This document shows, one piece after another, positions 23,675 to 27,929 of a stretch of 34,535 bases of DNA. The translations under genes and the position numbers were made by a program. The notes beneath the pieces were generated by a model. That model searched no databases and was not told the origin of the DNA. It worked only from the letters and a program-made list of their open reading frames with translations. Position 1 is the stretch's first letter. Each line of letters begins with the position of its first letter. Origin of the DNA: Clostridia bacterium. Its GTDB lineage: Bacteria; Bacillota; Clostridia; Christensenellales; Aristaeellaceae. The stretch is taken from positions 1 to 34,535 of the forward strand of contig JAFQQT010000061.1 in NCBI GenBank assembly GCA_017410455.1, read 5' to 3'.

Positions 23675-23706
23675 GCCATATGGGTCTGTGTGGGTTTGGT
23701 GGGCGC

Positions 23707-26700
23707 TTACTCCAGCGTGGAGACGGACACGGAGACGTAAGCCACATTGCCCTTGTAGAGCACCTTGTACCAGCTGTTCTCGCGGCCCAGGAATTCGAAG
23801 GACTCGCCCTTGTGGGCGGTGTAGACATACCCGGACTGGGCGTCGGGGCCGGTGCGCAGGATGCCCTGCGCGCTGGTGATGACGACGGTGTCGAGGGTCT
23901 CCTTCTCCACCTGGTACTGGCCGTACATCGTGTACAGCGCGGCGTTCTCGGTCACGCGGCAGTTGATGTGGCTGTCGATGGTGGACATGTACCGGTCGAG
24001 GTCGTTGATGTTGAACTCGGAAACGGACAGGCCGCGGGCGTCCTCATAGTCCTGGAGGAAGTCCTTGGTCTGGTTCAGGCCCTCGATCTGCAGGATGATG
24101 TAGAGTTCCGCCAGATAGCGGCCGTTCTCGGGGTCATCCTGGAGCACCTGCTGCACTTCCAGGCCAAGCTTGTTGTCCATGTCGCGCAGGAGCATCAGCG
24201 TCTGGGCGCTCTCGTAGGAGTCGCCCCAGCCCAGCATGAAGTCGGCAACGCTGCCCACCGCGCCGACGATCTTCAGCGGCGGGGCGGCGTTGTTCAGCAC
24301 CGTGTTGAGGAGCTCGGAGGCGGAATCCACCACATAGCCGGTGCCGATCTGAAGGGCGGTGTCCACGGCGATGTTGGCGTTCATCTGCTCCAGGGTCATG
24401 TTGGCCTGCTCGGTCAGGGTGGCCTTGAGGTTCTGGGCGGCGACGACGATGTCGTAGTTGCCGATGGCCTGGGCGGAGGTGATGATGCTGTTCAGCTTGG
24501 CCATGTTGGCGTCGTAGAGGATGCTCAGCTCGTAGTAGTCATTGTAGAGCTGGCGGGTGTTCTCGTAGGTCAGGAAGCCCTCCACGGCGAAGCTGAGCAT
24601 CTCGGCCGTCTCGCCCACGACGCTGCCGGTCTCGCTCATTCCGGCAAGGGTCGTGCGGGTCTCGGACATGGAGTCGATCTGCGCGGTAACCTGATTCCAC
24701 TGGCGCACCTGCTCCTCGGTGGCATTGCCGGCATCGATGGCGGCTTCCAGCACGTCCTGATTCTTCATCAGGCTGGTGATGACGTTGTCATACTGCTCGA
24801 TCCAGTCGTCCACGGTCTTGATGAGCGCAGCGTCGCCCATCTTCTCGTACAGCTCCATGGCGTCGTCGACGGTGTTGGCCGCGTTCTGCACATTGTAGGC
24901 GGCTTCCAGGTCGCGGATCTCGCCGGAGTAGCCGTACTCGGGATTGCGAACGAGCATCTGCGTGATGAGGTACTCCCACTTGAGGACCTGCTGCTCATCA
25001 TAATCGGCCTCGAAGAGCCCGACGACTGCGCCGGTCATGGCTGCGCCGGGGTCCTTGGTGGCGTCGATGGTCTCGGAGATGTACACATAGCCGCCTTCGG
25101 TCAGCTTGCCGATGGCTTCGCCGCCGATGATGCGGAAGGGGTCGCTCTCCCACAGGGTGGTGTCGGCCTGGATGAAGAACTCGCCCATGCGCTCCGCAGC
25201 GGTGCCTTCAATGCAGATGGAGTGGCCGCAGGCGCAGTAGAACCTGTAGTAGCCGCCGTCGGGCACCGCGCCGCCATAGTTGTGATGGCCGCACTGGCAG
25301 CAGTTGAGGGAAACGCCCAGGATCATCGGGGACACATCATAGGAGATGGCGCCGCACTTGCAGGCGACGTACTGGAGCGGGTGGGGGTGCTGCTCGGCGT
25401 AGACGGCGTTGGAGTAGGTGTGATTGCCGGTCACGGTGCAGTCCTGCTCCTCGGGGGCCGTCTGGGGCGTGGGGTTGCAGGTGGTGCAGGTGGCGAGGTA
25501 ACCTTCCTTGCCGGTGTAGGGGCGCGCGCCGCATTCGCAGACGATGAACTGCTTGTGGGGGTGCTTGGCTTCCGCGCTGGTGCGCGTGGCCACATGCTCC
25601 TCGTAGCGGGAGGTCTCCTCGGTGGTCACGGCGCCATCGGCGTGGGTGACCTTCCACGTTTCAACGACCCGGTGCACCTCGGTCGTTTCGTTGATCAGCC
25701 GGGTGGAGATCAGCTCGCGCCCGGGCTCCACAGCGGCCTGGTAGCCGCAGTACTTGCAGCTGCCGTTGACCATGGTGTGGCTGAAACGCACGGACTCGGT
25801 GTAGTTGGCGTCGATGACCTTGCCGCAGTCTGCGCAGGTGACGGTGTAGCTGGTCGCGGCAAAGTGCTGGTTCGCATCGGCGATCTTGTAGGTGGTGGAG
25901 CCGTTGGAGACCTTCGACTCAGTGGTGTGCTTGCAGGCCGCCTTGTAGCCGCAGGCGGTGCAGGCGTTGCCCTGGAAGGTGTGCTTCGCGTAGGTCGTTT
26001 CGGTCTTGCTGCTGCTGAGCACTTCGCCGCAGGAGGCGTTGGCACAGGTGACCTTGTAGGTCGTCACAACGGCGTGGAAGTCCGCATCGTGCTGTTTGAC
26101 GGAGCGGGAGAGCTGCGTCTTCTTCTGGGACGCGTGGTCACAGCCCTGCTCGCTGACGCGGGCGTAGCCGCACCTGGTGCATACGTCGCCGGAGAAGGTG
26201 TGGGCTTCCTTCGTGGTGGTGACGCGCGTGTTGTTCAGGAGCTGGGCGCAGGCGGAGTTGGCGCAGCGGTCCTCCCAGGTGATATCCACGATGTGCTCGG
26301 TGGCGGAGGTGGAAGCGCGGTAGCTGCGCGAGAGCTCCTTGCTGGTCTTGGAGGCGTGGGTGCAGGCCTCGGTGGGCTTGGCGCTGCCGCAGTACTTGCA
26401 GGAGCTGCCGGAGTAGGTGTGCGCGGCCTCGCTGGTGGAGTAGTAGGTCCGGACGGTGGCGTTGCACTTGGTGCACACATCAGCCCAGTTGGTGCGGATG
26501 CTGTGCTTGCTGTCGGAGATCTTGGTGTACTGCAACTCGCCATCCTGCACCTTCCTGGTGGAGGTGTGCTGGCAGGGGGCCTCCGTCACGGTGATGGTGC
26601 CAGAGGTTGCGGACTTCTGCTCCTTGGTGGTCTTGTCCTCCACGAGCACCTTGAAGGTGTAGCTGCCTGCCTGGGAGGCGGTGTAGCTGCCGCGGGTGTC

Positions 26701-27702
26701 CCAGGAGCTGGTGGAGTAGATCTCCGTGCCGTTGCGGTAGACATACCAGTAGTAGTTGTACTTGCCGGTGCCGCCGCTGGCGCTGCAGGTCGCGCCGATG
26801 GTGCTGCCCGTGTAGGCGGAGGAGCTGTTGCGGCTGATGCTCACCGACAGGGGGTCGTAGGTCTTGGCATAGCCGCAGTCCTTGCACTTGCCGTTGACCA
26901 TGTTGTGCTTGGCCTTGTAGGTGTCGATGATGCCGCGTTCAACGATCTTGCCGCAGTTGGCGTTGGCGCAGACCTCATTGCTGATGGTCTTGACCTTGTG
27001 GTAGGTCTCGTCATACTGCGTGTAGGTGCAGCTGGTCTCCTCAAGCTCGGTATCCGAGTGCTTGCAGGCGGCGCGGTAATCGCACATTTCGCAGTCGCCG
27101 TTGGCGTCAAAGGAGTGCGAACCCTTCTCGGTGCGGGTTTTGCCTTCGCTGATGACGTAGCGGCAGATCTTGCATTCCTCGTCATAGTACCAGGTGATGC
27201 GGTGCTGCGTGCTGGAGATGCTCACGCCGGTCGCACCGGTTTCAACCTGGTAGACGCCGTTGTTGTGCGGGCATTCCTCGTCGCACCAGGTACAGCAGCC
27301 CGTGCGGGAGCTCCACCTGTGATCGCACTCGGAGGCAGCGTTGACGGTGAAGTAGATCGTGCCCTGATCCAGCACGGTGCCATCGGCCGCCACAGCGCCG
27401 ACCCACGCCTTGTAGTAGCCGGCGGTCACCTTGCTGCCGGACACATAGGCGTCATAGCCGCTGCTGGAAGTGGCGCGGGAGCGCACATAAACGCCGGTGG
27501 TCTGGTTGAGGATGGTGCAGTCGTAGTGGTCAGCCCCGGCCACATCGGTATACCACATGATGGTGAGGCTCTCGCCCTCGACGTAGTCATCCATGTTGTG
27601 GAAGATGGTCATGCTGCGGGCGCTGGCGGTGCCGACCCCCACGCACAGCAGCATGAGGACTGCCAGGGAGAGGATCAGTGCACGGTGAATGAAGCGGTTC
27701 AT
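23707..27702 (-). CDS. Giant secreted Cys/His-repeat protein with SH3 domain (1331 aa)
   Basis: Not recognised as a named family. Signal peptide ~1-28. Residues ~30-122 look like an Ig/FnIII-type beta domain. A divergent Cys-rich unit (126-212) and one regular unit (213-279) precede an Ig/PKD-like domain (~283-374). Three more regular units and one with a shortened C-x2-C follow: 377-441, 447-514, 521-589, 590-657. Each unit reads C-x-H, then H ~20 later, C-x2-5-C, then H and C-x2-CG, i.e. eight possible zinc ligands. Degenerate Cys-rich sequence runs to ~835. Residues ~880-1260 are long helices without a recognised domain, including a small hydrophobic stretch near 1143-1157. The end (~1270-1331) is an SH3b-like domain (ILRTGPDAQSGYVY, SWYKVLYKGNVAYV), often cell-wall binding. 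ATG 27702 has an AGGAGG site. Monocistronic. Role unknown; surface adhesin, wall protein or toxin are guesses. Confidence 0.88.
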   Translation of the reverse strand: MNRFIHRALILSLAVLMLLCVGVGTASARSMTIFHNMDDYVEGESLTIMWYTDVAGADHYDCTILNQTTGVYVRSRATSSSGYDAYVSGSKVTAGYYKAWVGAVAADGTVLDQGTIYFTVNAASECDHRWSSRTGCCTWCDEECPHNNGVYQVETGATGVSISSTQHRITWYYDEECKICRYVISEGKTRTEKGSHSFDANGDCEMCDYRAACKHSDTELEETSCTYTQYDETYHKVKTISNEVCANANCGKIVERGIIDTYKAKHNMVNGKCKDCGYAKTYDPLSVSISRNSSSAYTGSTIGATCSASGGTGKYNYYWYVYRNGTEIYSTSSWDTRGSYTASQAGSYTFKVLVEDKTTKEQKSATSGTITVTEAPCQHTSTRKVQDGELQYTKISDSKHSIRTNWADVCTKCNATVRTYYSTSEAAHTYSGSSCKYCGSAKPTEACTHASKTSKELSRSYRASTSATEHIVDITWEDRCANSACAQLLNNTRVTTTKEAHTFSGDVCTRCGYARVSEQGCDHASQKKTQLSRSVKQHDADFHAVVTTYKVTCANASCGEVLSSSKTETTYAKHTFQGNACTACGYKAACKHTTESKVSNGSTTYKIADANQHFAATSYTVTCADCGKVIDANYTESVRFSHTMVNGSCKYCGYQAAVEPGRELISTRLINETTEVHRVVETWKVTHADGAVTTEETSRYEEHVATRTSAEAKHPHKQFIVCECGARPYTGKEGYLATCTTCNPTPQTAPEEQDCTVTGNHTYSNAVYAEQHPHPLQYVACKCGAISYDVSPMILGVSLNCCQCGHHNYGGAVPDGGYYRFYCACGHSICIEGTAAERMGEFFIQADTTLWESDPFRIIGGEAIGKLTEGGYVYISETIDATKDPGAAMTGAVVGLFEADYDEQQVLKWEYLITQMLVRNPEYGYSGEIRDLEAAYNVQNAANTVDDAMELYEKMGDAALIKTVDDWIEQYDNVITSLMKNQDVLEAAIDAGNATEEQVRQWNQVTAQIDSMSETRTTLAGMSETGSVVGETAEMLSFAVEGFLTYENTRQLYNDYYELSILYDANMAKLNSIITSAQAIGNYDIVVAAQNLKATLTEQANMTLEQMNANIAVDTALQIGTGYVVDSASELLNTVLNNAAPPLKIVGAVGSVADFMLGWGDSYESAQTLMLLRDMDNKLGLEVQQVLQDDPENGRYLAELYIILQIEGLNQTKDFLQDYEDARGLSVSEFNINDLDRYMSTIDSHINCRVTENAALYTMYGQYQVEKETLDTVVITSAQGILRTGPDAQSGYVYTAHKGESFEFLGRENSWYKVLYKGNVAYVSVSVSTLE

Positions 27703-27929
27703 ACGGGTACCTCCTTGTTTTGTCGTTTCTGTGGAACAGACGGAACTGGTGTGCCAGATTGGGCCGCAGACCACGTGGCAGGCGTCGTGCGGTCAGTGTG
27801 CAGCTGCTCTGGTTCTGTCTGCGATTTACACAACGCAACAAAAACAGGGCATTCTCACTATTTTTGGAAATAATTGTTGAATTTACATTCCCTCATCGTG
27901 CGGGAATGGGGAAAAATTCACATTGCCCC

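Follow-up and report, generated by a model that had tools for sequence, protein, structure and literature searches.

A 1331-residue exported protein of eight-ligand cysteine/histidine repeats with predicted metal sites in a member of the Aristaeellaceae

The repeat-protein gene and its eight-ligand units

The window analysed here is a stretch of 34,535 nucleotides from a Clostridia bacterium of the family Aristaeellaceae, order Christensenellales (assembly GCA_017410455.1, contig JAFQQT010000061.1, positions 1 to 34,535). The minus-strand open reading frame at 23707-27702 is a real gene that encodes an exported protein of 1331 residues. Its ATG lies at 27702 and its stop at 23707, an AGGAGG ribosome-binding site precedes the ATG (27710-27715), and a putative signal peptide covers about residues 1-28 (27619-27702; Kyte-Doolittle hydrophobic window 2.49). 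Partial orthologues were detected in two further genomes of the family (G194 and G231), and a search of genome contigs with the 1331-residue protein as a single query returned no relative. An exported Cys/His repeat protein with a signal peptide had been proposed in a first-pass annotation made from the letters alone, and the start codon, ribosome-binding site, reading frame and orthologues bear this out. A plus-strand open frame of 1397 codons (23680-27873) runs antisense to the gene and was taken as its shadow because the minus-strand protein has relatives.

The protein contains six units with the ligand order C-x-H, H, C-x2-5-C, H, C-x2-C(G), located by pattern and profile at residues 144-207 (27082-27273), 213-276 (26875-27066), 377-438 (26389-26574), 447-511 (26170-26364), 521-584 (25951-26142) and 590-652 (25747-25935), all on the minus strand like every other part of the protein described below. 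Units 5 and 6 are covered by an AlphaFold2 model as well. The pattern matched six times in the protein, compared with a mean of 0.007 and a maximum of 1 in 2000 shuffles of residues 125-700. The first pattern match began at residue 126 and the start of unit 1 was trimmed to 144, where the profile match also begins. About five units had previously been placed in residues 213-657; the repeats and their ligand order stand, and the count rises to six with the overlooked first unit. Linkers between neighbouring units are 5 to 9 residues long, and sequence identity to unit 6 ranges from 19 to 39% among the other five. Single-unit proteins elsewhere (L046, L198-L200) start at CxH and end at CxxCG, and the phase of the unit is therefore fixed.

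Conservation and spread of the units

Ligand conservation was measured on held-out units from 25 loci outside profile building, 13 of them taken from 20 loci with at least one full pattern match and 12 from profile searches. These loci gave 168 matches, 156 of them near full length; 144 unique units remained after 12 short matches and 12 duplicates were dropped. The eight ligand columns were conserved at 98, 98, 99, 99, 99, 100, 100 and 100%, the best-conserved other column was a glycine at 79%, and all eight ligands were present in 136 of the 144 units. Conservation in the 63 units picked by the pattern is circular because the pattern demands the ligands. Pairwise comparison gave the same picture: ligands were kept at 44 of 46 aligned positions against locus L032 and at 25 of 30 against L033, compared with 279 of 575 and 91 of 268 other non-C/H residues, respectively.

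No Pfam or NCBIfam family exceeded its curated cut-off on the units of the window protein, so that the profile search proposed by the first-pass annotation placed them in no known named domain. Unit 6 matched 14 families, all below cut-off, and the best E-value of the other 33 members of the unit profile (A1, built from 34 units of the window protein and other proteins) against named families was 9.7e-5. PHROGs yielded no match to the units. A profile search of the PDB with the units listed 55 chains up to E 10 (best E 0.0017), most of them C2H2 fingers of eukaryotes or small zinc proteins; these matches are carried by the repeated CxxC and H and were treated as composition. No paper on the eight-ligand unit was among the literature matches listed, part of that search being swamped by commoner terms. 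The architecture had been called undescribed, which holds for named families but is too strong, because similar zinc-binding domains were predicted in 2025 in the IgA protease of Thomasclavelia ramosa.

Of the genomes searched, A1 matched 60 of 200 in the window's family, 35 of 248 in its order and 3 of 398 in its phylum, each tally including the window's own genome. Twenty-nine of the 35 order genomes lie outside the family, and in 23 of these 29 the matches started only at profile position 26 or later, which is the second half of the unit. Genome G790, from another family of the order, is a clear exception with 19 matches. It has a pair of neighbouring frames, 1698 and 1292 codons long (L202:1553-10682), that encode long unit arrays with His-rich N-termini. 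Besides the window's own genome, A1 matched two full units in G376 and half a unit in G657 in the phylum set. A DNA motif scan of named genomes returned at least 120 stretches. Proteins containing full units are encoded on 20 of these 120, with two pairs located on a shared contig; the carriers include Candidatus Pullichristensenella (L058, L087) and Candidatus Faecaligallichristensenella (L067). The number of units differs from species to species; L087, for example, has 19 profile matches.

Within the window's genome, A1 recovered the same six units and one more in a second protein on contig C30 (L197:822-3194). In this second protein, a TIR domain that scores above its Pfam cut-off is followed, by eye, by a hydrophobic stretch, one eight-ligand unit and a proline/threonine-rich linker. 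It is a possible receptor with a metal-site ectodomain.

Proposed ligand grouping and metal sites

AlphaFold2 modelled a two-unit stretch of the window protein with a predicted local distance difference test score (pLDDT) of 90.4 and a predicted template modelling score of 0.53. The alignment (A2) comprised this stretch and 78 further rows, assembled from 4 window pairs and 75 of 79 listed pairs, four having been left out by hand. The model is free of helices and has six strands, each 12-13 residues long (11-22, 27-38, 46-58 and 80-92, 97-108, 114-126), that is, three long antiparallel strands per unit. Strand 1 would start from C1-x-H1, H2 would sit in the turn to strand 2 and C2-x-x-C3 in the turn to strand 3, which would end at H3 and be followed by C4-x-x-C5. 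Because the ligands can be read onto this strand order, we infer a four-and-four grouping, with C1 and H1 (before strand 1) joining C2 and C3 (turn 2-3) at one end of the sheet and H2 (turn 1-2) joining H3, C4 and C5 (after strand 3) at the other. Each group would hold one structural metal, most likely zinc, and such staples would replace disulphides and a hydrophobic core. Two metal sites per unit are thus probable, a reading that fits both the eight near-invariant ligands and the grouping suggested by the confident model. The first-pass annotation had proposed two zinc knuckles per unit and a structure model as a check on paired sites; ligand conservation and model topology agree with two sites, which would lie at opposite ends of the sheet and not as adjacent knuckles. 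Paired ligand loss was considered as proof of the grouping and rejected as uninformative, because the sole double loss among the 8 of 144 units that lack a ligand sits at the aligned start of its unit.

The spacing of the ligands gave an independent hint of such a sheet. The spacings H1-H2, H2-C2 and C3-H3 had medians of 21, 10 and 16 in units with an H2-C2 spacing of 10 (18 units, 7 proteins) and of 23, 12 and 18 in units with a spacing of 12 (156 units, 32 proteins); averages for 7 and 33 proteins were 21.0/10.0/16.1 and 23.2/12.1/18.1, respectively. All three thus differ between the subfamilies by about two residues, one strand repeat, and this joint shift is what a thin three-stranded sheet predicts. 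Of the 199 units in the set, 136 were held-out and 63 pattern-picked; the H2-C2 spacing was neither 10 nor 12 in 25 of the 199. Unit 5 of the window protein was kept in the set at 15/15, an extra histidine having been taken for H2. Among held-out units alone, where H2-C2 hardly varies, correlations between spacings were absent or slightly negative, and these tests ignore ancestry.

The cysteines might instead form disulphides, the units being ordinary cysteine-rich extracellular modules. The protein is exported, its mature chain has 51 cysteines, and DsbA or VKOR is present in some clostridia according to PMC12453122. Histidine, however, occupies three of the eight near-invariant positions in each unit, which makes a bound metal, zinc most probably, the more plausible interpretation. 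VKOR, Thioredoxin_4 and DSBA had no match in the window's draft genome (DsbB was not searched for), whereas 3, 9 and 8 of 14 control genomes, respectively, had matches, and this too favours metal. No disulphide was observed in the T. ramosa IgA protease despite its 24 cysteines. We therefore regard disulphides as distinctly unlikely. Iron sites for electron transfer, as in rubredoxin, are extremely improbable: some units match rubredoxin-like proteins and zinc ribbons weakly, but histidine occurs in both predicted sites and the family matches of unit 6 all fall below cut-off. Zinc ribbons share two CxxC(G) motifs with the units but score only weakly, and the units have further ligands and a long three-strand ladder.

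The closest described relatives of the units, by description more than by sequence, appear to be the AI-predicted zinc-binding domains of the IgA protease of the gut bacterium T. ramosa. Those domains are three-stranded up-and-down antiparallel subdomains, like the units in the two-unit model, and are extracellular, free of disulphides and predicted to hold 2H2C and 3C1H sites, which the ligand make-up of the window units would fit by model topology; a predicted sortase motif after them is a further likeness. They differ in being confined to two regions, one with 3 and the other with 2 predicted sites, located at subdomain interfaces and within an enzyme. At the sequence level the relationship is marginal. 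The A1 search of the PDB did not list the protease chain, and a profile of a compact form of the unit matched it at E 0.03, equal to the unrelated human TAX1BP1 (single stretches, 0.097 and 0.14).

This compact form (A4), 42-49 residues long and from gut Clostridia, shares the ligand order [CH]xH, H, CxxC, H, CxxC and aligns with the unit at an hhalign probability of 98.4% (E 6.8e-15), over 27 columns only, in the second half of the unit. It differs in its median spacing of 12/4/9 (28 pattern-picked copies) and in the first Cys, which is often His. One of five compact-form proteins (L130) exceeds the cut-offs of Tad3 (31.5 vs 27) and zf-DBF (28.8 vs 24.8), but no single stretch passes. A4 matched 4 of 299 genomes of the phylum, including the window's own.

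The remainder of the protein and a candidate wall-associated stalk

Other parts of the protein flank or interrupt the unit array. The N-terminal domain (27328-27618) is Fn3-like by eye, resembles stretches of L034 and L204 by eye, and had no match in a Pfam scan. A four-ligand stretch, C-x-H...C-x2-C, precedes unit 1 (residues 126-140, 27283-27327) and is present in L032 too. Mini-repeats of this form, about 15-18 residues each, occur in L118 and, arranged in tandem, in L147; they and the window copy have the appearance of a four-ligand, single version related to the eight-ligand unit. The Ig-like insert noted earlier is present between units 2 and 3 (about residues 281-376, 26575-26862), with matches to Pfam Y_Y_Y and Ig_2 that are both below cut-off. 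What had been called degenerate Cys-rich sequence is another kind of Cys/His repeat, with the order H, CxC, CCxC, H, CxxC, in residues about 660-838, common to L032 and L033; it comprises a partial copy at residues 714-742 (25477-25563) and a full copy at 772-830 (25213-25389). Its hhalign probability against the eight-ligand unit was 17.8%, and no shared ancestry is therefore claimed.

An acidic helical block lies at residues 839-1264 (23911-25188) and at about 426 residues is longer than the 380 first estimated. It matched 3 of 200 family genomes, the window's own included, with G189 partial and G231 a further case. PHROGs gave two weak matches (best E 0.0081). The block had been suspected of inserting into membranes, and it could be a membrane-inserting or otherwise toxic head displayed by the repeats; helicity in a low-confidence model and the narrow distribution, as an accessory head might show, speak for this. 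The block is, however, strongly acidic (68 D/E vs 22 K/R), and it contains no membrane-like segment: past residue 60 of the protein, hydrophobicity over 19-residue windows peaks at 1.28 (Kyte-Doolittle, residue 1139). Modelled alone it was helical but had a pLDDT of 43.5, hence no reliable fold, and its PDB sequence matches were at chance level (best E 0.27). Membrane insertion is not upheld and a toxic head is very unlikely.

The SH3b-like end recognised earlier is a Pfam SH3_3 domain (PF08239; residues 1281-1325, 23728-23862), at 37.1 bits against a curated cut-off of 27. SH3_3 domains usually bind the cell wall, and this end suggests the same for the window protein. By eye, relatives with units end in an LPXTG-type signal (L043), Big-like repeats or an unnamed C-terminal domain, and units are joined to NlpC/P60-like sequence in L204; these layouts fit a stalk with exchangeable ends. 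Judged by eye, the arrays in L036, L040, L041, L042, L045 and L203 are followed by a common C-terminal domain, about 150 residues long, and Pfam scans of L036 and L040 found nothing named in it. L039:4666-7827 combines, again by eye, units, Big2-like repeats and an HESGH motif and is possibly a metallopeptidase.

The gene has tRNA-Thr and tRNA-Pro genes upstream on the opposite strand and a convergent MatE gene downstream. An inverted repeat can be read between the two convergent genes and was not listed by the terminator scan. Comparison of 9 window genes with the loci around 4 relatives revealed no conserved neighbourhood; the sole match paired the window's phosphotransferase system enzyme I with another phosphoenolpyruvate enzyme in L033 (28% identity). 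Eight of the ten neighbouring frames scanned had Pfam matches, and none of these eight is a metal uptake protein. This bears on the possibility that the arrays mainly bind, store or scavenge a soft metal, zinc or some other, on the cell surface. Some 12 ions could be bound by the six units alone, and one relative has 19 profile matches. Single-unit proteins exist, however, and a metal site formed by four protein ligands generally has a structural role, so that, with no uptake protein among those neighbours, we consider storage unlikely.

Our preferred reading, held with moderate confidence, is an exported and probably cell-wall-associated stalk in which each unit is a thin sheet stapled by two structural metals. 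Neighbouring units would stack into a rod bearing the N-terminal domain and the helical block, and the SH3_3 end would anchor the rod to the wall. The data show the sequence, its conservation and spread and the strand order of the model; from these we infer the ligand grouping, the identity of the metal, the rod and the wall binding. Among known stalks, the G5-E arrays of staphylococcal SasG/Aap are likewise elongated tandem beta modules and came first in the Foldseek list, not significantly; PMC9802226 describes Aap adhesion as zinc-dependent. Periscope Proteins are, according to PMC9704523, single-chain wall-attached rods whose repeat number varies between strains; their tandem repeats are highly identical, unlike the divergent units of the window protein.

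These results touch on the means by which long extracellular proteins of obligate anaerobes are kept stable in the absence of disulphides. The units likely carry two metal sites per about 65 residues, are matched in 60 of the 200 sampled genomes of one family and, as found in the window, are nameless in Pfam and NCBIfam. If the reading is true, the domains predicted to bind zinc in a single IgA protease would become an example of a class of envelope modules. Tentatively, this anaerobe family, whose member here has no detected disulphide machinery, might build surface fibres on metal staples, their stiffness depending on zinc in the gut, and the unit behind the TIR domain may be a zinc- or contact-sensing ectodomain.
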